Source of the DNA: Haloprofundus halobius
GTDB lineage: Archaea; Halobacteriota; Halobacteria; Halobacteriales; Haloferacaceae
Assembly: GCF_020097835.1 (NCBI RefSeq)
Contig: NZ_CP083666.1
Coordinates: forward strand, 992,001-1,056,000
Direction: 5' to 3'
DNA length: 64,000 nt
Below the pieces are notes generated by a model, which saw only the letters and a program-made list of their open reading frames with translations, did no database searches and was not told where the DNA came from. Both the position numbers and the translations under genes were made by a program. Of this stretch, positions 22,834 to 42,344 are shown piece by piece; position 1 is the first letter of the stretch, and every line of letters begins with the position of its first letter.

Positions 22834-23145
22834 ATGGTCGACGTGACACTCGACGCAGAGGAGATGAGCCGAGAAGACGTCGCGGCGAGACCCGAAGAAC
22901 TGGCCCAGGAACTCCGCGAGGGCGACGCCTTCGACGTGAGGGTCGGCAACAAGACGGTGACGCTCAACCCGCGTGAGAGTCTCGCCTTCGAGTTGAGCGT
23001 CCGCGAGCGCTCGGCCATCCTCCGCGGCAATCGCGAGACGGTGTCGATAAGGATGGACTGGAAGTCGAAGTACGGGGAACCGCCGACCGCACGGAGTAAC
23101 CGTTTTGTACCGCCTCTCCGAGCGAAGTATCATGGTTTACAATGA
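22834..23145 (+). CDS. Amphi-Trp domain protein
   Basis: A 103-residue small protein. Residues 1-77 follow the amphi-Trp pattern: an amphipathic N-terminal helix (ARPEELAQELREGDAFDV), short strands (VRVGNKTVTLNP), then a strand ending at MDWKSK. The role of this small family is unknown; a membrane-surface function has been guessed from the amphipathic segments. The C-terminal 26 residues after DWKSK are not typical, and the stop lies 14 nt inside the paaK coding region. The paaK TATA-like sequence lies inside this tail. Confidence 0.7.
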   Translation: MVDVTLDAEEMSREDVAARPEELAQELREGDAFDVRVGNKTVTLNPRESLAFELSVRERSAILRGNRETVSIRMDWKSKYGEPPTARSNRFVPPLRAKYHGLQ

Positions 23146-24415
23146 GGTAGAGCGGACGGACCGCGACGAACTGCAGTCGATGCAGGACGAGCGTCTCCGG
23201 ACGACTGTCGAACACGCCTACGAGAACGTCGATTTCTACCGCGACGCCCTCGACGAGGCCGGTATCTCGCCGGGCGACGTCGGCGGTATCGACGATATCT
23301 CGCTGCTCCCGTTTACCGCCAAAGAGGACTTCCGCGACCGCTATCCGGACGGTCTCGTCGCCGTCGAGAGAGACCAGTTGCGGCGCATCCACGCCTCGTC
23401 GGGCACGACGGGCAAACCAAAGGTGGTCGGATACACCGAGGGCGACCTCCAGCTTTGGGGCGAAGTGATGGCACGGTCGCTCGAAACCGCGGGTGTCGAC
23501 CCGAGCCACACCGTCCAGAACGCCTACGGCTACGGTCTCTTTACTGGCGGCCTCGGCATCCATCTGGGCTGCGAGACGCTCGGGACGAACGTCATCCCCA
23601 TCGGCGGCGGGCAGACGGGGAGGCAGTTGGAACTGCTGTCGGACCTCGGGTCGGACGTCCTGACCTGCACGCCGTCGTACGCGCTCTACCTCGCCGAAAC
23701 CGCCGAAAAAGAGGGTATCGACCCCCGCGAGTGGAACCTCTCGACGGTCGTCATCGGCGCGGAACCCTGCACCGCGCCGATGCGCGCCGAGATAGAGGAG
23801 GCACTCGACGTGACGGCGCTCGACATCTACGGTCTCTCCGAGATAATCGGCCCCGGCGTCTCGATGGAGTGCGAGGCCAAATCGGGACTGCACGTCTGGG
23901 AGGACCACTTCTATCCCGAAGTCGTCGACCCCGAGACGGGCGACCCGCTTCCCGAGGGCGAGGAGGGCGAACTCGTCTTCACGACGCTGACGAAGGAAGC
24001 CGTTCCAGTTCTGCGCTATCGGACCGGCGACCTGGCGACGCTGACGCGCGAATCGTGCGACTGCGGGCGGACGATGGTTCGGATGTCACACGTCACCGGT
24101 CGCAGCGACGACCTGCTCATCGTCCGCGGCGTCAACGTCTACCCCAGCGAGATCGAGTCCGTCGTGCTGGAGTTCGACGAGGTCGCTCCGTACTACCGCA
24201 TCGATCTGAAGCGCGACGACCAACTCGACACCATCGATATCACCGTCGAGCGGACCGAGTCCTTCGACGGCGGCGACGACGAGTTAGCGCAGCGACTCCG
24301 TGACCGACTCCAGACCGTGCTGTCGCTGTCGCCGGATTCGCTCACCATCGCACCGCCGGGCGGCATCGAGCGAACGGAAACTGGAAAAGTGAAACGCGTC
24401 TTCGATCACCGCTGA
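23132..24415 (+). CDS. paaK: Phenylacetate-CoA ligase
   Basis: A 427-residue AMP-forming ligase that makes phenylacetyl-CoA from phenylacetate, ATP and CoA, the first step of the pathway. It shows the nucleotide loop HASSGTTGKPKVVGYT near residue 90, the YGLSEIIGPGVSMEC block, the hinge YRTGDLATLT and the C-terminal GRSDDLLIVRGVNVYPSEIE. The size and motif set are those of PaaK. A gttttgta element is centred 27 nt before ATG 23132, which supports this start over the in-frame ATG at 23105. The epoxidase genes are about 8 kb away on the same strand. Confidence 0.94.
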   Translation: MVYNEVERTDRDELQSMQDERLRTTVEHAYENVDFYRDALDEAGISPGDVGGIDDISLLPFTAKEDFRDRYPDGLVAVERDQLRRIHASSGTTGKPKVVGYTEGDLQLWGEVMARSLETAGVDPSHTVQNAYGYGLFTGGLGIHLGCETLGTNVIPIGGGQTGRQLELLSDLGSDVLTCTPSYALYLAETAEKEGIDPREWNLSTVVIGAEPCTAPMRAEIEEALDVTALDIYGLSEIIGPGVSMECEAKSGLHVWEDHFYPEVVDPETGDPLPEGEEGELVFTTLTKEAVPVLRYRTGDLATLTRESCDCGRTMVRMSHVTGRSDDLLIVRGVNVYPSEIESVVLEFDEVAPYYRIDLKRDDQLDTIDITVERTESFDGGDDELAQRLRDRLQTVLSLSPDSLTIAPPGGIERTETGKVKRVFDHR

Positions 24416-26670: not shown

Positions 26671-26692
26671 TCGGCTTGCCATAGCAAGCCGA
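26671..26692 (+). promoter_or_regulatory. 9-bp hairpin before the acidic four-gene operon
   Basis: tcggcttgc and gcaagccga form a perfect 9-bp stem around a 4-nt loop (cata). It ends 37 nt before ATG 26730. It could be an RNA hairpin in the leader or a palindromic operator. No other gene is in this gap. Confidence 0.6.
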
Positions 26693-26729: not shown

Positions 26730-27605
26730 ATGGATTCGGAACGTCCACCCGAGCACGTCGAACGGTTGGAAATAGACAGTATCAGGCAGAGAGTACTGAC
26801 GGACGGCGGACAGAGTGCCGAAGCCGAGGAATCGGAGGAGGCCGACGAGTCCGAATCGTCCGAGGAATCGCAAGAATCGGAGGAAGCTGAGCAATCGGAG
26901 GAAGAAGAGTCGGCCGAAGACGAAGAGTCAGCGGACGAAGAAGGCGAAGAGGAAGAAGGCGAAGACGAAGAGGAGTTCCCCTCCGAGACGGCCAAAGAGA
27001 AGAAAGACACCTCCGACCAGCGACAGGAGGCGATGCGAGGCGAGGACGAGACGGGCGTACTGTTTTTGGACCTCGAGGGCCTCCATCTCGACCTCCTCGG
27101 GTTGGAAGTCGACCTCGACGACGTCGTCCTCGACCTCTCCGCCAAGGAGGGCGAGGGCAACCTCGTCGGCAACCTCCTCGCGGCCGTCGCCGGACTGCTC
27201 GACGACGGCCTCGGCAACATCGCCGACAAGCTGCCGGGGATGCCGGAGCTACCGGATCTCAAGGACATGCTTCCGGAACTGCCGTCGCTCGGCGGCGAGG
27301 GTGAAGACGGCGAGGGCGGCCGCCTCTCCTCGGCGGCGGACGCCACGAAGAGCACGCTCAAATCCGCCGCGAAAGAACTCCCGCTAAAAGATATCGCGGT
27401 CCAGATCATCGTCGGGGTGGTGAACCAACTGTTCGGTGACACCCAGAAGGACGAAAGCGAGGAGGAAGAAGGTGAAGAGAGCGAGTCCGGCGAGGAAGGC
27501 GGCGAAGAGAGCGAGTCCGGCGAGGAAGGCGGCGAAGAGAGCGAGGGAGAAAGCGACGAGGAGGGCGAATCGTCCGAGGACTCCGAGGAGGAAGACGAGT
27601 CGTGA
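26730..27605 (+). CDS. Acidic operon protein 1 with LDLLGLxVxLDD core
   Basis: A 291-residue very acidic protein. Residues about 30-85 are almost only Glu, Ser, Asp and Ala. The hydrophobic core (108-160) has LFLDLEGLHLDLLGLEVDL and GNLVGNLLAAVAGLLDD, then a Pro/Leu linker with PELPDLKDML and an amphipathic helix (LKDIAVQIIVGVVNQLFG, about 219-236). The tail is acidic, with a 10-residue repeat from a 30-nt DNA repeat. I recall similar LDLLGL...GNLLGNLL cores in bacterial proteins of unknown role, but not their function. The stop overlaps the next start (GTGA, 27602-27605). No signal peptide is seen, so it is probably cytosolic or peripheral. Confidence 0.7.
   Translation: MDSERPPEHVERLEIDSIRQRVLTDGGQSAEAEESEEADESESSEESQESEEAEQSEEEESAEDEESADEEGEEEEGEDEEEFPSETAKEKKDTSDQRQEAMRGEDETGVLFLDLEGLHLDLLGLEVDLDDVVLDLSAKEGEGNLVGNLLAAVAGLLDDGLGNIADKLPGMPELPDLKDMLPELPSLGGEGEDGEGGRLSSAADATKSTLKSAAKELPLKDIAVQIIVGVVNQLFGDTQKDESEEEEGEESESGEEGGEESESGEEGGEESEGESDEEGESSEDSEEEDES
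27481..27540 (+). repeat. Two perfect 30-nt tandem units in acidic gene 1
   Basis: Bases 27481-27510 and 27511-27540 are identical, with partial copies on both sides. The unit stays in frame and encodes ESGEEGGEES. This can change copy number without breaking the frame. Confidence 0.9.
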
Positions 27606-27850
27606 GCGAGTCGTCGATTCTCGGCCGCATCGACGTGACCGAACTGCTGTCGAACCTCGACTACGACGAACTGCTCGCAAACACGAAGTGGAACGGAATT
27701 CAGGACGAAGACGCGCTCGGCGAGCGACTCGGCGGTCGAGGCGGCGAAGTACTCGGTGCGCTCGTCGGTTCGGCGCTCGGCGCACTACTGGGCGAACGCT
27801 TCGTCGAAAAGACGCTCGACCGCTTCACGGGAGGCAGCGATGATGAGTGA
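27602..27850 (+). CDS. Acidic operon protein 2 with seven-step GxxxG zipper
   Basis: An 82-residue protein from a GTG start that overlaps the previous stop. After an N-terminal segment (ESSILGRIDVTELLSNLDYD) come Gly residues at 40, 44, 48, 52, 56, 60 and 64: a glycine every fourth residue. The stretch LGALVGSALGALLGERF is hydrophobic enough to insert into or across a membrane or to pack into another helix. The end is acidic (GGSDDE). Glycine zippers usually mediate tight helix packing. Its partner could be the adjacent protein 3, which has the same spacing. Function unknown. Confidence 0.72.
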   Translation: MSESSILGRIDVTELLSNLDYDELLANTKWNGIQDEDALGERLGGRGGEVLGALVGSALGALLGERFVEKTLDRFTGGSDDE

Positions 27851-28595
27851 CTCCTCGTCCTCGTCGTCTTCGCTGCAGAACGTCGTCGCCGACGAGGTCG
27901 AAGACCAGATCGACGGCCGCGAGGTCGGCGAGAGCATCGGCCGAAAGATCGGCAGTCGACTCGGCCGCGAACTCGGGCGACGACTCGGCCGGACGGTCGA
28001 CGAAACGGTCCGTGAGGGCATCGAGACGGGGAAGAAACCGTTCGAGATACTCGCCGACGTCAAAGAGACGCTCAGACAGGCCATCTTGAACTCGCTGGGC
28101 TCCCGCGAGGCGGTCGAGGAGAGCGCCAACGCCTTGCGCGACGCGGTGTCCGAACCGAGCGAAATCGAACAGGCGGCCGAGGAGGCCGCGGAGTCGGCGC
28201 AGGAAACCGCCGAGAGCGCCACAGAGCAGGCGACCGACACCGCCGAAAGTGCCGCCGAGGAAGCGACCGACACCGCCGAGCAAGCTACCGAAGAGGCGAC
28301 CGACGCCGCCGAGAGCGCCGAAGAGTCGGCCGAAGACGCCGCCGACGAGGTCGAATCCCGCGCGTCGGACGCGGTACCGGACAATCTGAGTGACGTGCGC
28401 CGCGAAACGTACCAGGAACTGCTCGAAACCGTCTCGTACCGCGAACTGCAGTCGATGGCGAAGGACGCCGACGTCAAGGCGAACCAGAGCCGCGAGGAGC
28501 TCGTCGAGGAGCTCGTCGAGCGGTTCGACGAGGAGACCGACTCGGCTGAGGGCTCCGACCAGTCGGACTCCGACGGGGGTGACGACGACGAATGA
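27840..28595 (+). CDS. Acidic operon protein 3: GxxxG zipper, AET-rich repeat, SAP-like tail
   Basis: A 251-residue protein starting at ATG 27840 (27843 is the alternative), overlapping gene 2 by 11 nt. Gly residues at 26, 30, 34, 38, 42, 46 and 50 form a seven-step GxxxG zipper, here with Arg and Glu between, so it is polar and not membrane-like. Residues 111-176 are Ala/Glu/Thr/Ser repeats (for example TAESAAEEATDTAEQA) similar to LEA or apolipoprotein helices. Residues 195-229 (QELLETVSYRELQSMAKDAD, then NQSREELVEELVERF) fit a SAP/Rho-N-type helix-extension-helix, which often binds nucleic acid. Function unknown. Confidence 0.72.
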   Translation: MMSDSSSSSSSLQNVVADEVEDQIDGREVGESIGRKIGSRLGRELGRRLGRTVDETVREGIETGKKPFEILADVKETLRQAILNSLGSREAVEESANALRDAVSEPSEIEQAAEEAAESAQETAESATEQATDTAESAAEEATDTAEQATEEATDAAESAEESAEDAADEVESRASDAVPDNLSDVRRETYQELLETVSYRELQSMAKDADVKANQSREELVEELVERFDEETDSAEGSDQSDSDGGDDDE

Positions 28596-29395
28596 GCGAC
28601 GCCGCCGAGACAGTCGACCGCCTCCTCGACGAAGTGAGAGAGGCACTCTCGGCGTCCGACGAGGAGGGCGACGACCGGCTCCGCGAACTCGCCGACGAGA
28701 CGGCGGCGTTCGTCGACGAGACGACGACCAAAGAGCTCATCAGAGCCGTCGGGCTCACCGACGACGACGGGGACCACGTGGAGACGATCCCCCGCGCCTT
28801 CGCCGTCGGCGGCGAGGAGTCCGTGCTCGACCTCAAGACGATTCTCGCGCTGTCGAACGCCGAGGACACCGAGGACGACGACGCGATGGACGAACTCCGA
28901 GCGCGGCTCTCGGAATTCACCGAGGAGTTGGACCAGTTGTCGGCGGACCAGTCGGTCGACGAAGAGAAGACGGACGAGACGGAGGCCGACGAAGCGGAAG
29001 CTGAACCCGACGAGACGGAGAGTGAAGCCGACGCCGAGGCAGCCGAAGAGCCCGAAGAGCCCGAAGTCGAGGCGGATGCGGAGGGAGACGACGAGTCGGA
29101 GGGTGCCGGTTCGCTCCTCACCGAGTCGCTGCAGTCGCAACTCGACGAGGCGGCCGACTCGCTCAAAGCCAGCGTCGAACAGATGCAGGCGGGTGGTGAG
29201 GAGGACGCGGAAGCCGAGCCGGGCGACGAGACCGACGCGGAAGACGAAGACGCCGAAGACGACGAACTCGTCGACGTGGGTCTCGGCGACGACGACGGCC
29301 GCTCCCGCGGACGGGCGACGATGCACTCAACCGTGCCGAAGTCGCGGCGCGACATGAACGGCGTCGCCAGACACTCGACCGTGCCGAAGCGGTGA
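28592..29395 (+). CDS. Acidic operon protein 4 with double HSTVPK tail
   Basis: A 267-residue protein overlapping gene 3 by 4 nt (ATGA). Residues 1-115 form a folded-looking N-terminal part (AAETVDRLLDEVREALS; TTKELIRAVGLTDDD; VLDLKTILALSNAED). The middle is a long Glu/Asp/Ala stretch, about 130-172, then an amphipathic helix (LLTESLQSQLDEAADSLKAS) and more acidic sequence. The last 26 residues switch to basic character and contain HSTVPK twice (245-250 and 261-266), separated by SRRDMNGVAR. The repeated end motif looks like a docking or recognition tag. No family name is recognised. Confidence 0.72.
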   Translation: MSDAAETVDRLLDEVREALSASDEEGDDRLRELADETAAFVDETTTKELIRAVGLTDDDGDHVETIPRAFAVGGEESVLDLKTILALSNAEDTEDDDAMDELRARLSEFTEELDQLSADQSVDEEKTDETEADEAEAEPDETESEADAEAAEEPEEPEVEADAEGDDESEGAGSLLTESLQSQLDEAADSLKASVEQMQAGGEEDAEAEPGDETDAEDEDAEDDELVDVGLGDDDGRSRGRATMHSTVPKSRRDMNGVARHSTVPKR

Positions 29396-29525: not shown

Positions 29526-30710
29526 ATGGTGCCACGACCAACGACAGTTCGCCGGACGCTGACCAGCGTCGCCGACGAGTTTCGAGCGAAGAACGTCGCG
29601 TTCATGGCTGGCAGCATCGCGTACAACGCGTTCGTCTCGCTGCTCCCGCTCTTGTTGCTGCTGGTCCTCTCGGTGTCGGTCGTCGGGAGCGGCGCGCTCG
29701 AACGCCGCGTCATCGAACTCGCCGCGACGTATCTCGCTCCGGGCGTCGGCGACACGCTCCGAGAAGTGCTACGCGAGGCCGACGAGAACACCGGCTTCTC
29801 GCTCGTCGGCATCGTCGTCCTCCTGTGGGGGACACTAAAGATATTCCGCGGCCTCGACACCGCCTTCTCCGAAATCTACGAGACGACGCAGACCGACGAC
29901 TTCGTCGACCGGATTCGCGACGGGTTCGTCGTCCTCACGGCGCTTTTCGTCGCCGTCGTCGCCATGGTTACGGCCGGGTCCGCCTTCGCAGCGCTGACGC
30001 AGCGACTCGCCATCGGCGTCCTGAACCCCCTGTTTCTCGTCGTCTCGCTCAGTATCGCCTTCTTCCCGCTGTACTACGTCTTTCCGAACGTCGACGTCAC
30101 CCCCCGACAGATTCTCCCCGGCCTCCTCACCGCCGCGGTGGGGTGGGCGATGCTCCAGGCGCTGTTTCAGGTGTACGTCGCCGCCTCGGCGAAGACCGAC
30201 GCGTACGGCCTCCTCGGCGGTGTCGTCCTTCTGGTCACGTGGCTCTACTTCGGCGGTCTCCTCCTGTTGCTCGGCGCGGTTGTCAACGCCGTCGTCGGGG
30301 GCTACATAGGCGGAGGCTCGGTCGCGACGGAGGCGGACGGTTTCTCGTTCGCCGACTCCCACACCGCCTCGGACTCCTCGAACACCCACACGTACCGAGA
30401 GTCGCACCTCTCGCCGGACGAGGCGGCGACGCACCTCCGTCGTCTCCGCGAAGGGCTGACCGGCCGATACGACCGAATGCGCCCGACCGACGACGAGAGA
30501 ACCTACCGTCTTCTCTCCGAAACGACCGAGGTCGGCCTCCTCGAACGCTCGTACGGGGTCGACGACGACCTCGTCTACGAGACGTGTTTCCGATGGTGTC
30601 TACCCGAGGGCGACACCGAGGCGACCGGGGACGGCGAAGCCGTCGTCGACCTCGCCGACGAGACGGACGGGTCGTCGACAGCCGACGCGCATCGTACCGA
30701 GGAGCGCTGA
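29526..30710 (+). CDS. YihY/BrkB-family membrane protein, copy 1
   Basis: A 394-residue protein of the UPF0761 (YihY/BrkB, once called RNase BN) family. Early motifs are KNVAFMAGSIAYNAFVSLLP and VLLWGTLKIFRGLDTAFSEIYE. About six transmembrane helices lie between residues 20 and 270. The last about 120 residues form a soluble charged tail with HLSPDEAATHLRRLREGLTG and YGVDDDLVYETCFRW, longer than in bacterial YihY. The family's transport or enzymatic role is unsettled. The gene lies 130 nt after the acidic operon and 76 nt before its paralogue. Confidence 0.85.
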   Translation: MVPRPTTVRRTLTSVADEFRAKNVAFMAGSIAYNAFVSLLPLLLLLVLSVSVVGSGALERRVIELAATYLAPGVGDTLREVLREADENTGFSLVGIVVLLWGTLKIFRGLDTAFSEIYETTQTDDFVDRIRDGFVVLTALFVAVVAMVTAGSAFAALTQRLAIGVLNPLFLVVSLSIAFFPLYYVFPNVDVTPRQILPGLLTAAVGWAMLQALFQVYVAASAKTDAYGLLGGVVLLVTWLYFGGLLLLLGAVVNAVVGGYIGGGSVATEADGFSFADSHTASDSSNTHTYRESHLSPDEAATHLRRLREGLTGRYDRMRPTDDERTYRLLSETTEVGLLERSYGVDDDLVYETCFRWCLPEGDTEATGDGEAVVDLADETDGSSTADAHRTEER

Positions 30711-30786: not shown

Positions 30787-31932
30787 ATGAGTACCCGACG
30801 CTCTCCCGTCGCGGTCGGGAAACAGGTTCTCGGGGAGTTCAGTTCGAAGAACGTCGCGTTCATGGCCGGGAGCATCGCGTACAACGCGTTCGTCTCGTTG
30901 ATTCCGCTTCTGCTCTTAGTCGTACTCCTAGTGTCGATTCTCGGCTCTGCGGAACTCGAACGACGGGTTTCGACGCTCGTCGCGTCGTCGCTGACGCCCG
31001 CGGCGGGAGATCTCGTCTCAAATGCGCTCGACAGCGCGAGCGAGGGGACCGGCCTGTCGGTCGTCGGCGTCGTCGTCCTCCTGTGGGGGACGCTGAAGAT
31101 ATTCCGCGGGCTCGACACCGCCTTCTCCGAGATCTACGAGACCGAGGACACCAACGAACTCACCGACCAACTCCGCGACGGACTCGTCGTCTTCGTCGCG
31201 CTCCTCGTCGGCATCACGGCGATGGTCGCCGCCAGCACCGCCTTCGCCGCCTTCGAGTCGCTCCCGTGGGTCGGCCTGCTCAACCCACTCCTGTTGGTTC
31301 TCGGGCTAGCAATCGCCTTTCTGCCGCTGTACTACGTGTTTCCCGACACCGACCTCTCGGTTCGGGAAATCCTCCCCGGCGTGCTAACGGCGGCCGTCGG
31401 GTGGGCGTTGCTCCAGGGCGTGTTCCAGTTCTACATCGCCTTCTCGGACAAGTCGGAGGCGTACGGCGTGCTCGGCGGCGTCATCGTGCTCGTCACGTGG
31501 CTCTACTTCGGCGGTCTCGTCCTTCTGCTGGGGGCGGTCGTCAACGCCGTCGTCGGCGGCTACGCGACCGGTTCGGCGGGCGGCGTCGGGAGGGGTGCCG
31601 CACAGCGCGCCGCGAATCGGGAGGTACTCCGTGAAGACCGGCTGAACCGCGACCAGGCGGCGAGATATCTGCGGCGACTCCGCGAGGACATCGCCCGGCG
31701 GTACGAAGGAATGGAGCCGACGCGGACCGACGGAACGCCCGGCCGCCTCCGGATGCCGGAGACCGGGACGCTCGAAGTCGCCGAGCGGGCGTTCGACGAG
31801 GGCGACGAACGGGTCCACGAGGTACGACTCCGGTGGCAGACGGGGAAGTCGAACGCTCACGTCGGTTCCGAGGCGACGGAAGCCACCGACGCGGATTCGC
31901 CGGACCGGTCAACGTCGCCCGTCGACGACTGA
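30787..31932 (+). CDS. YihY/BrkB-family membrane protein, copy 2
   Basis: A 381-residue paralogue of the preceding gene. It shares KNVAFMAGSIAYNAFVSLIP and VLLWGTLKIFRGLDTAFSEI, and its YLRRLREDIARRYEGMEPT segment matches the tail of copy 1. The DNA is also clearly similar in the conserved parts, which points to a tandem duplication. The C-terminal tail differs most (RLRMPETGTLEVAERAFD), so the two may have different partners. Six helices are expected. Function as for copy 1. Confidence 0.85.
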   Translation: MSTRRSPVAVGKQVLGEFSSKNVAFMAGSIAYNAFVSLIPLLLLVVLLVSILGSAELERRVSTLVASSLTPAAGDLVSNALDSASEGTGLSVVGVVVLLWGTLKIFRGLDTAFSEIYETEDTNELTDQLRDGLVVFVALLVGITAMVAASTAFAAFESLPWVGLLNPLLLVLGLAIAFLPLYYVFPDTDLSVREILPGVLTAAVGWALLQGVFQFYIAFSDKSEAYGVLGGVIVLVTWLYFGGLVLLLGAVVNAVVGGYATGSAGGVGRGAAQRAANREVLREDRLNRDQAARYLRRLREDIARRYEGMEPTRTDGTPGRLRMPETGTLEVAERAFDEGDERVHEVRLRWQTGKSNAHVGSEATEATDADSPDRSTSPVDD

Positions 31933-32683: not shown

Positions 32684-33628
32684 ATGGACCTCGACACCGT
32701 CAAAGCACGGGCCGGACCTCGCCAGTTCAGCCCGAAAGACGACATGCCGGAGGAGTACCGAAAGGCGGCGACGCGGATGATCCAGTTCCACGCTAACTCC
32801 GAGGTGATGGGCGGCTACCTCGACAAGGCGTTCACCCGCATGGCGCCGAGTCTGGACCGGAAACTCGCGTGCACGGCGAAGACGCAGGACGAAATCGGCC
32901 ACGCGCAACTGCTCTACCGCGCCGCCGAGACGCTCGGCGTGAAGACGCGCGAAGAGATGCTCGACGAACTCGAACGCGGCGACGGGAAGTTCCTCAACTG
33001 CTTTCACTACCCGGTGAACTCGTGGTACGAAGCGCCGATGATCGACTTCTTCGTCGACGGCGGCGCGATGCGCCGGCAGGCGACGCTGAAGCGCACCTCG
33101 TGGGAGCCGTACGCGCATGCGATGGACAAGGTCTGCTTCGAGGAGGGCTTTCACGTCAAACACGGCGAGGACATCCTTCGGGAGTTGATGCGTTCCTCGA
33201 AGGCAAACCAGGAGCGCACGCAGGCGGTGTTCGACACGTGGTGGCCGCGCATCCTGCAGTTCTTCGGGCCGATGAACAGCGAGAGTACGCACAACGACTT
33301 CGCCCAGCAGGTCGGGCTGAAGACGGTCTCGAACTCGGAACTCCGACAGGCCTTTTTGAACGCCTACATCCCGAAAGCAGAGAAGTACGGCCTCGAAATC
33401 CCCGACGAACCCAGAATCGAGTACGACGAGGAGACCGGCAAGTACCGGGTGGTCGAGGAGGACCTCGACTGGGACGAGTTCTGGACCATCGCGAAGAACG
33501 ACTACGAGGGAAGCTACGAACAGATCGGCTCGCGTCGCCAGCGCCACGAAGCGGTGTCGTGGGTGCGCGAGGCGATGGACGGCTGGGAGAACAACTCGGC
33601 GGGTACGACCCCGCAGGCGGCCGATTAG
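32684..33628 (+). CDS. paaA: Phenylacetyl-CoA epoxidase subunit PaaA
   Basis: A 314-residue catalytic subunit of the 1,2-phenylacetyl-CoA epoxidase, a di-iron monooxygenase that opens the ring pathway. It has the carboxylate-His motifs AKTQDEIGHAQLLY and CFEEGFHVKHGEDI expected of the di-iron site. The length is normal for PaaA. It is the first gene of paaA-B-C-D plus the zinc ribbon; paaB starts one base after its stop codon. Divergent from the bat-type regulator. Confidence 0.95.
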   Translation: MDLDTVKARAGPRQFSPKDDMPEEYRKAATRMIQFHANSEVMGGYLDKAFTRMAPSLDRKLACTAKTQDEIGHAQLLYRAAETLGVKTREEMLDELERGDGKFLNCFHYPVNSWYEAPMIDFFVDGGAMRRQATLKRTSWEPYAHAMDKVCFEEGFHVKHGEDILRELMRSSKANQERTQAVFDTWWPRILQFFGPMNSESTHNDFAQQVGLKTVSNSELRQAFLNAYIPKAEKYGLEIPDEPRIEYDEETGKYRVVEEDLDWDEFWTIAKNDYEGSYEQIGSRRQRHEAVSWVREAMDGWENNSAGTTPQAAD

Positions 33629-39684: not shown

Positions 39685-39768
39685 GCGTGGGTAGCCAAGC
39701 CAGGAAACGGCGCAGCGCTTAGGACGCTGTCTCGTAGGAGTCCGCCGGTTCAAATCCGGTCCCACGCA
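39685..39768 (+). tRNA. tRNA-Leu (anticodon UAG)
   Basis: A class II tRNA. The acceptor stem pairs GCGTGGG (39685-39691) with CCCACGC (39761-39767), then the discriminator A. The D-stem pairs gcc/ggc, the anticodon stem is CAGCG/CGCTG around the loop CTTAGGA, giving anticodon UAG. A long variable arm and a T-arm (gccgg ttcaaat ccggt) complete it. CCA is not encoded. No intron is seen. Confidence 0.93.
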
Positions 39769-39770
39769 TA
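39745..39770 (+). repeat. 26-bp direct repeat, copy at tRNA-Leu 3' end
   Basis: The 3' end of tRNA-Leu (T-arm and acceptor strand) with two further bases. It is repeated at 39869-39894 with one mismatch (t to c). This is the usual signature of an att site left by an integrase-driven element. Confidence 0.85.
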
Positions 39771-39868
39771 AACCGGCGCGAGTGGACACGAGCGCCGTGT
39801 TTTGCTGACTGAGGGTTTGAACCCTGCAAGTCGCGCGCAACGAGCGAAGCGAGTGAGCACGTCTTTTT

Positions 39869-39894
39869 CCGGTTCAAATCCGGCCCCACGCATA
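39869..39894 (+). repeat. 26-bp direct repeat, downstream copy
   Basis: Second copy of the tRNA-Leu 3' end (25 of 26 bases equal), 98 nt after the first. There is no tRNA body in front of it. It probably marks an insertion scar or one end of a former element. The DNA after it is richer in AT than the host. Confidence 0.85.
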
Positions 39895-39995
39895 CGCCCT
39901 CGGCGTTACGTCGCGCAATTCTCTCGGTGTGTCTATCGGAAGAAAACCCACAAAATTCGCTCGATAGACCACATTCATTGCAACGCTGTCCCGTA

Positions 39996-40346
39996 GTGGA
40001 CGGAGACGAAACCGAACCCAATCGGAACGTCATCACCGTCCCCGAAGCCACCCGAAAACTGATTTACGACTACAACAGGGCGACCTCGAACAGCGAGAAG
40101 CGCGACATCGAGAATCAAGTCCTCGAAGAAACCGTCTGGCGGCCCGAACGCGAAGCCGATGGCGGCCCCTTCACGCTGTCGAGAGACGACCTGATGGCCT
40201 TGTACGAACGCTTGGACGATGACGATGAAGAAGGCAAGCAGTTGGTTCGGAAGGCGCTGGTGGACCACCTGTCGCCGTCGGTCACTTTTCTCCGGAAACT
40301 CGTGGACAGCGAGAAGCCGCCGAGTAACTCACTTTCGACGCATTAG
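39996..40346 (+). CDS. Accessory hypothetical protein
   Basis: A 116-residue soluble acidic protein read from GTG 39996 (an ATG-less start; an in-frame ATG at 39927 also exists). It is helical: ITVPEATRKLIYDYNRATSN, then KRDIENQVLEETVWRP and LSRDDLMALYERLDDDDE. No family is recognised. Base use is less GC-biased than in the flanking genes. It lies directly after the duplicated tRNA end, so it is likely part of the accessory patch. Confidence 0.45.
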   Translation: MDGDETEPNRNVITVPEATRKLIYDYNRATSNSEKRDIENQVLEETVWRPEREADGGPFTLSRDDLMALYERLDDDDEEGKQLVRKALVDHLSPSVTFLRKLVDSEKPPSNSLSTH

Positions 40347-40420
40347 AGATAGAGGGAGTCAGTAAGAGTTGACTTTTCTATCTACTGGGAACCGGGGATT
40401 TAGTGTGACGCCACTAACAC

Positions 40421-40426
40421 TTATAT
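40421..40426 (+). promoter_or_regulatory. TATA-like element of accessory HTH gene
   Basis: ttatat centred 28 nt before ATG 40452, in an AT-rich gap. Confidence 0.6.
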
Positions 40427-40451
40427 CGTAAGTCGTTGACGTTACTATAGA

Positions 40452-40862
40452 ATGTCTGACGATACCTTCGGGTCAGATGGTGGAGAATATAACTGGAGAA
40501 GCGGGTGCGCGACCCAGTTGCTACGCGATTCGAGGGTCACCGAGAACCTTGATACTATTTTCGAACTCTTAAGTATTGCACGGCTCCGCTACGTCCTCTA
40601 TTACCTCTATAGTATGGACGACGAGGTCGTCGAGATCGAAGATGTAGTTCACGCAGTATGTGCCTACGAGGCCGCTGGCACGGAACCAGACGAATCCCCA
40701 TCACGGGACCAAGTCAAACTTGATGTACACCATTCGAAGCTACCCCGTCTTGACGCGGCCGGAATCATCGACTACGACTCCCGACAGAAGGAACTCCGCT
40801 TTTACCGCTCTCCATCTCTCGAAGAGTGGCTCGAACACGCTCGGTACATGGAATTAGACTAA
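40452..40862 (+). CDS. Accessory HTH protein, DUF7344-like
   Basis: A 136-residue protein with the same core as the gene at 1930: LDTIFELLSIARLRYVLYYL, then VHHSKLPRLDAAGIIDYDSR. It is thus probably a winged-helix regulator of the DUF7344 group. Its codon use is AT-richer than that of the flanking genes, which suggests it came with the element inserted at tRNA-Leu. A TATA lies 28 nt upstream. It may regulate the element or an unknown target. Confidence 0.65.
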   Translation: MSDDTFGSDGGEYNWRSGCATQLLRDSRVTENLDTIFELLSIARLRYVLYYLYSMDDEVVEIEDVVHAVCAYEAAGTEPDESPSRDQVKLDVHHSKLPRLDAAGIIDYDSRQKELRFYRSPSLEEWLEHARYMELD

Positions 40863-41534
40863 GTAAATAACAATCTCCTACAGAAATAAATTAGACAATC
40901 AACGGCTCAAAAGTAGTACTCGGAGCTAGTACGTTTAGGGAATCATTGACAGCGCGATGCGCCTCTGATCGAGACTCCCTCAGTGGTCGATACACCACAC
41001 AAACCCTACCGCAATGGGACTGATGTCGAAAATTGGCCGTCCGTGAATCGAAAGTAGCTCCGAATTTTCACGAAGCGGTCATCCCAATTCGTGTGATTCA
41101 GGTGGGTACGACAACTGCTCATCTGCAAACGTAGCTACAGGTACTGATCGCGGCCACCACTCTCCTGAGCCTCCGTCATTTGGCCAACTGAGCTCGCTCA
41201 AATCGAATTGGCCATGAATAGGTAGGGAAGAAAGTACAGAACCGATCAGTTGCCATCGCACTCGTAACCCTCGTCGAAATCGCAGTCGGACTCGAACGGT
41301 TGCTCCGGGAGACCAGTCGTCGAAACACGAATTAAGCCTCTCCCTCCCGATACGCCCACTTTAACACGTCGAATGTTCATCATGACTGCGCCATCGACAG
41401 TCAGCCATCGTCTGACTTGGCTCCCTACAAATGTATTAACACTCTTATTGCGTGATAGATACTGTCACGAATCACCAAACGGCGGTAGGTACGCGCCACA
41501 ACTTCTATAGGTGCTCCTTGAGAGTTATCGGTCA
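40863..41534. other. AT-rich gene-free accessory patch
   Basis: This 672-nt stretch carries no gene that I can support. Only short frames are seen (for example a 60-codon minus-strand frame at 41079-41261, and a hydrophobic plus-strand fragment near 41250-41330 without a start). These may be decayed gene ends. The composition is AT-richer than the rest of the window until about 41500. The far end holds the dacZ promoter. Confidence 0.6.
41503..41510 (+). promoter_or_regulatory. TATA-like element of dacZ
   Basis: ttctatag centred 28 nt before ATG 41535. This selects that start and suggests a leaderless dacZ-mscS mRNA. Confidence 0.55.
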
Positions 41535-42344
41535 ATGTCAATGCTGGCTGACTTCTTGAACGACCTCATGGCCGACGTCGACGGCCTGTTTCTGTTCTCC
41601 CCGAGCAGTTCGTTCTACGAACGATTCGAGAACGTCGAGACGAGCCTCGTCGTCGTCGCGCCGACGAACGCCGTCGACGCCGACCAGTTCGTCGAACTGC
41701 CGCTGGAGTTCGAGAACGTCCGCGACCGGGTTCGATTCGGCATCGAGGGGGCGATGGACGAGGGTCTCGTCGATAGTGGCGACGTCGTCGCCTGCACCAT
41801 CGGGACGTTCGGCGACGACAGCGATACGCTGCTTCGAGTCCGCGCCGACGAGAAGATGCACTCGGGGATGTACGACCTGTTCACGAACTCACGCGCGGAC
41901 CCGAGTGTCATCCGTGACGTGTTCGAGGTGGCCATCGAACTCGGCAAGAAGGGCCAGAAAGGTAGCCCCGTCGGCGCGCTGTTCGTCGTCGGCGACGCGG
42001 GCAAGGTGATGAACAAGTCGCGTCCGCTGAGCTACAACCCGTTCGAGAAGAGCCACGTCCACGTCGGCGACCCCATCGTCAACGTGATGCTCAAGGAGTT
42101 CTCCCGACTCGACGGCGCGTTCGTCATCTCCGACTCGGGGAAAATCGTCTCCGCGTATCGCTATCTCGAACCCGGCGCGGAGGGCGTCGACATCCCGAAG
42201 GGACTCGGTGCGCGCCACATGGCCGGTGGCGCGATAACCCGCGACACGAACGCGACGGCCATCGTGCTCTCGGAGTCTGACGGCCTCGTCCGGGCGTTCA
42301 AGGGCGGGCGGTTGATACTCGAACTCGACCCGGAGGATTACTGA
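41535..42344 (+). CDS. dacZ: Diadenylate cyclase
   Basis: A 269-residue enzyme that makes c-di-AMP from two ATP, essential and dose-sensitive in Haloferax. The DAC-domain motifs are present: DGAFVISDSG and LGARHMAGGAIT (the DGA and RHxxG type). The N-terminal domain contains ADVDGLFLFSPSSSFYERF, typical of archaeal DacZ. The start is chosen from the TATA spacing. The gene for a MscS channel starts one base after its stop. c-di-AMP controls turgor and ion transport in many microbes, so the pairing is meaningful. Confidence 0.94.
   Translation: MSMLADFLNDLMADVDGLFLFSPSSSFYERFENVETSLVVVAPTNAVDADQFVELPLEFENVRDRVRFGIEGAMDEGLVDSGDVVACTIGTFGDDSDTLLRVRADEKMHSGMYDLFTNSRADPSVIRDVFEVAIELGKKGQKGSPVGALFVVGDAGKVMNKSRPLSYNPFEKSHVHVGDPIVNVMLKEFSRLDGAFVISDSGKIVSAYRYLEPGAEGVDIPKGLGARHMAGGAITRDTNATAIVLSESDGLVRAFKGGRLILELDPEDY

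Follow-up and report, generated by a model that had tools for sequence, protein, structure and literature searches.

A four-gene operon probably belonging to the gas vesicle system of haloarchaea without GvpC

Gas vesicles are flotation organelles, and the protein that usually braces their shell is GvpC. Loss of GvpC yields weakened vesicles and loss of GvpI very long ones (PMC4390858, PMC7688916); GvpI binds GvpH, GvpF and GvpL (PMC7688916). Several haloarchaea with gvp clusters devoid of gvpC are described in one review as Vac-negative for unknown reasons, although their 11 genes should suffice (PMC4390858). The combination of an extended GvpI and no gvpC was already noticed for Natrialba magadii in its 2012 genome paper, in a passage that makes no mention of the operon described here (PMC3403918). 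Bacillus megaterium has gas vesicle proteins outside the core set, GvpU and GvpT, which may have an organising function (PMC11445434). We describe here a haloarchaeal module, P1-P4, which differs from GvpU and GvpT in being a four-gene operon and is likened to them by role, not by sequence; for this module we propose a shell-bracing role, as for GvpC.

The operon was found in a 64,000 nucleotide stretch of the genome of Haloprofundus halobius (NZ_CP083666.1, positions 992,001 to 1,056,000; hereafter the window). As described in the initial annotation, it consists of four overlapping open reading frames on the + strand. P1 (26730-27605, 291 aa) starts at a conserved ATG at position 26730 and has acidic, low-complexity arms flanking a conserved core. 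It overlaps by 4 nt the gene for P2 (27602-27850, 82 aa), a small protein with a GTG start and a glycine-zipper stretch. P3 (27843-28595, with a start maybe at 27840; 250-251 aa) overlaps P2 by 8 nt (11 nt with the earlier start) and combines, according to alignment and AlphaFold prediction, a glycine-zipper stretch, a long Ala/Glu-rich helix and a SAP-like C-terminal domain. P4 (28592-29395, 267 aa) overlaps P3 by 4 nt and is a GvpI paralogue (see below). All the parts that had been listed beforehand could be recognised, namely the hydrophobic core of P1, the glycine zippers of P2 and P3, the Ala/Glu-rich helix and SAP-like tail of P3 and the double end tag of P4. The description of each protein as extremely acidic proved correct for P1, P4 and P3, whose aspartate plus glutamate contents (36%, 35% and 29%, respectively) rank first to third in the window, where the median is 18%; it did not for P2, which is ordinary in this respect (21%, rank 20).

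Searches of P1-P4 against Pfam and NCBIfam assigned them to no family, in agreement with the initial annotation, and returned only sub-threshold glycine-zipper and composition-driven matches. A matching operon on a Haladaptatus plasmid, the one annotated relative that was checked, is annotated as four hypothetical proteins. The four genes are under purifying selection: comparison with four other Haloprofundus genomes gave dN/dS values of 0.11-0.47 over all genes (0.23-0.34 for P1, 0.11-0.19 for P2 and 0.19-0.28 for P3). Together with the recurrence of the gene order in other genera, these values indicate that P1-P4 are real, constrained genes rather than chance reading frames.

The order P1-P2-P3-P4 was found in Haloprofundus, Natrinema, Natronococcus, Haladaptatus, Halogranum, Halogeometricum, Halegenticoccus, Haloarcula and Halohasta. 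It is thus kept in other haloarchaea, well beyond the genus, as expected if the four genes form a system, which is how they had initially been read. In H. halobius the operon is unlinked to the gvp cluster, which lies 1.2 Mb away and contains gvpA, O, F, G, H, I, J, K, L and M, without gvpC and gvpN. In other cases (Halohasta, Halocatena, Halalkalicoccus, Halococcus and several MAGs), P1-P4 genes lie within a gvp cluster or next to one; P1-P2-P3-P4 adjoins gvpO-A in Halohasta, and the order in Halocatena is gvpF-G-H-P1-P2-I-J-K-L-M. No relative was detected in viral contigs, and a tblastn search of plasmids with P3 gave no match at 1e-5, though Haladaptatus plasmids carry diverged copies. Haladaptatus halobius has three P1 loci, one on the chromosome and two on plasmids (L041, L043, L047), and two gvp clusters. 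The gvp cluster of Haloprofundus halobius itself, which lacks the AAA ATPase GvpN, is adjoined by a gene for a CDC48-like double AAA ATPase (L128:15634-17793).

The genes flanking the operon in the window, encoding a MaoC-like dehydratase, BrkB family proteins and PaaA, are common to Haloprofundus marisrubri and are not kept in other genera, so that the local context says little on function. For the same reason, a polyhydroxyalkanoate-granule or phenylacetate function, suggested by the MaoC and PaaA neighbours, was rejected. A phenylacetate degradation locus does surround the operon, with an AMP-binding ligase of the phenylacetate-CoA ligase type (23105-24415) and PaaA (32684-33628). Two BrkB/YihY-family membrane proteins are encoded in tandem just downstream of it (29526-30710 and 30787-31932), apparently through duplication. 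Further on, at 39685-42000, a tRNA-Leu gene is followed by a region of low G+C content (0.54 versus about 0.66), possibly an integrated element.

We then compared the distribution of the module with that of gvpA by profile searches. Of 391 Halobacteria genomes, 130 had a P1 core and 162 had gvpA. All 130 genomes with P1 contained gvpA, and none of the 229 genomes without gvpA contained P1, bearing in mind that the 391 genomes are a sample of species whose clade structure lowers the amount of independent evidence. At the genus level, the 40 genera with P1 all fell within the 53 genera (out of 86) that have gvpA (p 1.6e-13). A profile of the SAP-like domain of P3 also matched 130 genomes, 124 of which were P1 genomes, and in roughly twenty pairs whose coordinates were compared by eye the P3 match and P1 shared a strand and were separated by 1.3-2.4 kb. 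P1 was not detected in about 16 gvpA genomes, whose clusters are of the acidic-GvpI type or unexamined, indicating that the module is not universally required.

GvpC showed the complementary distribution. Strong repeats of the haloarchaeal GvpC family (Halo_GVPC, PF05465) were present in 14 gvpA genomes, none of which had P1; a weak match of 22.8 bits in one P1 genome (G256) was scored as not confident. The exclusion within gvpA genomes has a p value of 8.5e-12, which overstates it, since it separates two classes of clusters with few independent switches. In two genera (g31 and g42), some species are of one type and some of the other. Among the clusters examined, those with GvpC encode a short GvpI of 113-148 aa with a net charge of +4 to +17, and those of the P1 class a long acidic GvpI of 290-383 aa with a net charge of -41 to -63. 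GvpN was found in 14/14 GvpC genomes and in 24/48 of the P1 genomes tested, a proportion that led us to reject it as an obligate partner of the P1 class. No PF05465 match was obtained with P1-P4 or anywhere in the H. halobius genome. With its acidic, helical repeat-like region and its small C-terminal domain, P3 is reminiscent of GvpC in layout; however, P1-P4 have no sequence match to GvpC, are four proteins instead of one and, unlike gvpC, are not encoded between gvpA and gvpN.

Eighteen gvpA genomes were first scored as having neither P1 nor GvpC. In one of them (G259), GvpI is short and basic, and gvpA and gvpN are separated by a GvpC-like gene (L191:9684-10934) without PF05465 match. The C-terminal end of the product of this gene looks SAP-like by eye, a resemblance that received no support from the SAP profile of P3 and was dropped; other GvpC proteins have a CxxC...H zinc-finger-like end at this place. 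Another (G216) contains a decaying operon (L199:2305-4776) in which P1 has lost its core, P2 and P3 are intact and the P4 reading frame lacks the conserved tail; gvpN has been lost from the gvp cluster of this genome, so that decay affects the operon and gvpN alike. A further six of the 18 had their clusters examined, and all encode a long acidic GvpI. Haladaptatus and Natrinema are two of the genera with species listed as Vac-negative (PMC4390858), and the species of both that we examined have the module. The table of a later review gives the same Vac-negative species as having gvpC (PMC9501494), in conflict with PMC4390858, with PMC3403918 and with the missing GvpC repeats in the P1-class genomes that we searched.

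The relationship between P4 and GvpI was analysed in detail. Conservation within P4 is highest in the basic tail, HSTVPKSRRDMNGVARHSTVPKR (29324..29392, + strand), which contains two S-T-V-P boxes. Proteins encoded at the gvpI position carry RNPTA-x-STxP...STVP...RIYGxRF, a tail that is also common to the short basic GvpI. Profile-profile alignment (hhalign) of P4 with gvpI-position proteins gave a probability of 99.2% and an E value of 2.9e-19 over the N-terminal domain. A full-length P4 profile drew in P1 proteins upon iteration, probably via their acidic composition, and the homology was therefore re-tested using just the N-terminal domain and the tail, against control sequences that had been shuffled or reversed. 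With the N-terminal domain profile, 13/13 extended GvpI scored above all 65 shuffled and 13 reversed controls, and the GvpI-tail profile found P4 proteins at E values of 3e-4 to 0.007. The N-terminal profile did not match the short GvpI, which are devoid of that domain. A search of the genome with a short degenerate pattern for STxP codons was uninformative.

Extended GvpI and P4 thus have in common an N-terminal domain, an acidic linker and a double S-T-x-P tail. However, the NPTA box and the terminal R-[IL]-[YF]-G-x-R motif of GvpI are absent from P4, which is encoded outside the gvpH-gvpJ interval and is found in genomes that also have GvpI; in H. halobius this interval is occupied by the organism's own GvpI. 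Lacking the NPTA and RIYGxRF boxes, P4 is a relative of GvpI and not GvpI: from these alignments, it is a paralogue of the extended acidic form.

The P1 core (55 aa; 27042..27206, + strand) shows in alignments an alternating hydrophobic pattern of beta type followed by an amphipathic helix, and its fold was not confidently predicted (low AlphaFold confidence for the monomer). A C-terminal amphipathic helix of P1 (27384..27434, + strand), with a conserved hydrophobic pattern, was predicted with low to moderate confidence. Profiles of P1 and P3 compared with the sequences of solved structures yielded nothing credible. A relationship was found between P2 and P3, both of which contain glycine-zipper stretches. 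Much of the SAP-like domain of P3 (28386..28553, + strand) was modelled with a pLDDT above 90. In Foldseek it matched best the SAP-type domains found in DEK, ERI1, Rho and Tho1, which may hint at the helix-helix-helix SAP/Rho-N fold, but all E values exceeded 0.5 and P3 has no SAP match in Pfam.

A profile search of our genome collection retrieved 29 loci with a P1 core, 26 of which were haloarchaeal or euryarchaeal and three from Chloroflexi (L045, L046, L051). The Chloroflexi genomes have no gvpA match, which suggests that the P1 core may have been recruited from elsewhere; two of the three proteins have an apparent signal peptide and extra cysteines. P1 and GvpO proteins also have in common an N-terminal motif of the L-L-T-D-G-G type, with an acidic stretch after it (26730-26820 in P1 of the window; L130:5430-6113; GvpO of L056 and L057).

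Upstream of P1, we observed a dyad, GGCTTGC-CATA-GCAAGCC (26673..26690, + strand), centred 48 nt before the start codon, which is a candidate promoter or operator element. It is conserved in five Haloprofundus genomes, where gvpA is also preceded, at a distance of 47 nt, by a TGC-N4-GCA dyad with flanking GCC; in one P1 copy the GCC is replaced by GGC. A promoter profile trained on gvpA of other genera gave higher scores on P1 upstream regions than on control genes (p 2.8e-7 for 16 loci, not all of them independent; p 0.003 with one locus per genus; p 0.009 in genera where the operon is unlinked), the Haloprofundus region itself having a moderate score only. This result supports, without proving it, co-regulation of P1 and gvpA.

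Co-occurrence with gvpA, linkage to gvp clusters, exclusion of GvpC and paralogy of P4 with GvpI together make it very probable, as far as sequences can tell, that P1-P4 belong to the gas vesicle system. The initial annotation had seen in them an undescribed operon of assembly-type proteins, which agrees with the conserved order and with the lack of a family, and also pieces of a particle, granule or membrane-bound scaffold; as a free-standing structure, this part of the proposal is superseded by the assignment to gas vesicles. We consider it highly improbable that an independent acidic scaffold or granule operon co-occurs with gvp genes by accident: even though the operon is far from these genes in H. 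halobius and many other species, it is missing from every gvpA-less genome, is linked to gvp clusters in other genera and encodes a GvpI homologue. Most likely, it is an accessory or shell module dedicated to the GvpC-less class, and its exact job (shell brace, assembly factor, tether or part of another GvpA organelle) is what we infer. The reading that we prefer, and to which we give an even chance, is a gvp module, unlinked in H. halobius, which works with the GvpC-less haloarchaeal clusters by an adapter and bracing mechanism. With its basic STVP tail, P4 would attach to the complex for assembly to which GvpI binds (GvpH, GvpF, GvpL) and, as an adapter, would bring P1-P3 to the growing GvpA shell. 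There, P1, through its hydrophobic core and amphipathic helices, and the glycine-zipper and helical proteins P2 and P3 would form an acidic layer. This layer would brace or shape the shell, the job that GvpC and the short basic GvpI perform jointly in Halobacterium. Against this mechanism, those P1-class species that the literature mentions by name are Vac-negative and their clusters may make no gas vesicles, the fold of the P1 core is not confidently predicted, and some gvpA genomes have no detected P1.

The same proteins could instead be extra chaperones or nucleators, acting in the manner proposed for the GvpF-M accessory complex: they would maintain GvpA, GvpJ and GvpM in solution, initiate assembly and dissociate afterwards. 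This is a less probable alternative but the one to be taken most seriously, as P4 resembles GvpI, which is itself accessory and has GvpH, GvpF and GvpL as binding partners (PMC7688916), and P1 and P2 lie in Halocatena within the gvpF-M operon, between gvpH and gvpI. However, the module phyletically replaces GvpC and no accessory gene; the H. halobius cluster has retained gvpF, G, H, I, J, K, L and M. Acidic low-complexity proteins might also cluster or tether vesicles, or hold them to the nucleoid via the SAP-like domain in P3, for which the structure search ranked nucleic-acid binding domains highest; a clustering role is described for GvpU and GvpT in Bacillus (PMC11445434). Given that the SAP match is not significant and that such a role leaves the exclusion of GvpC unexplained, we regard it as unlikely. 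That the P1-class gvp genes and P1-P4 build a GvpA-based organelle or particle other than a buoyant gas vesicle would account for gvpC-less species being Vac-negative with a set of 11 genes expected to be enough (PMC4390858), and for the purifying selection on the module. All core gvp genes are nevertheless conserved except gvpC, and gvpN in some species, and the Vac-negative phenotype may merely reflect the growth conditions tried, so that this explanation is quite unlikely too.

No link between P1-P4 and gas vesicles was found in the open-access literature or annotation examined. Under a broader formulation, whose chances we judge to be evenly balanced, most haloarchaeal gvp systems would constitute a second, GvpC-less class always reliant on a separate P1-P4 operon, whether for vesicles coated with several proteins unlike GvpC or for a GvpA organelle that is not a gas vesicle. 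If this is true, clusters that have been read as silent or incomplete had a required second locus that was overlooked. The operon, being conserved, co-inherited and often unlinked, renders the puzzle of Vac-negative, gvpC-less species (PMC4390858) directly testable. New shell or coat proteins could also serve in engineered gas vesicles. In our sample of gvpA-bearing Halobacteria, the module occurs about nine times as often as detected GvpC, and the textbook GvpA/GvpC vesicle may therefore be a minority design in this group.
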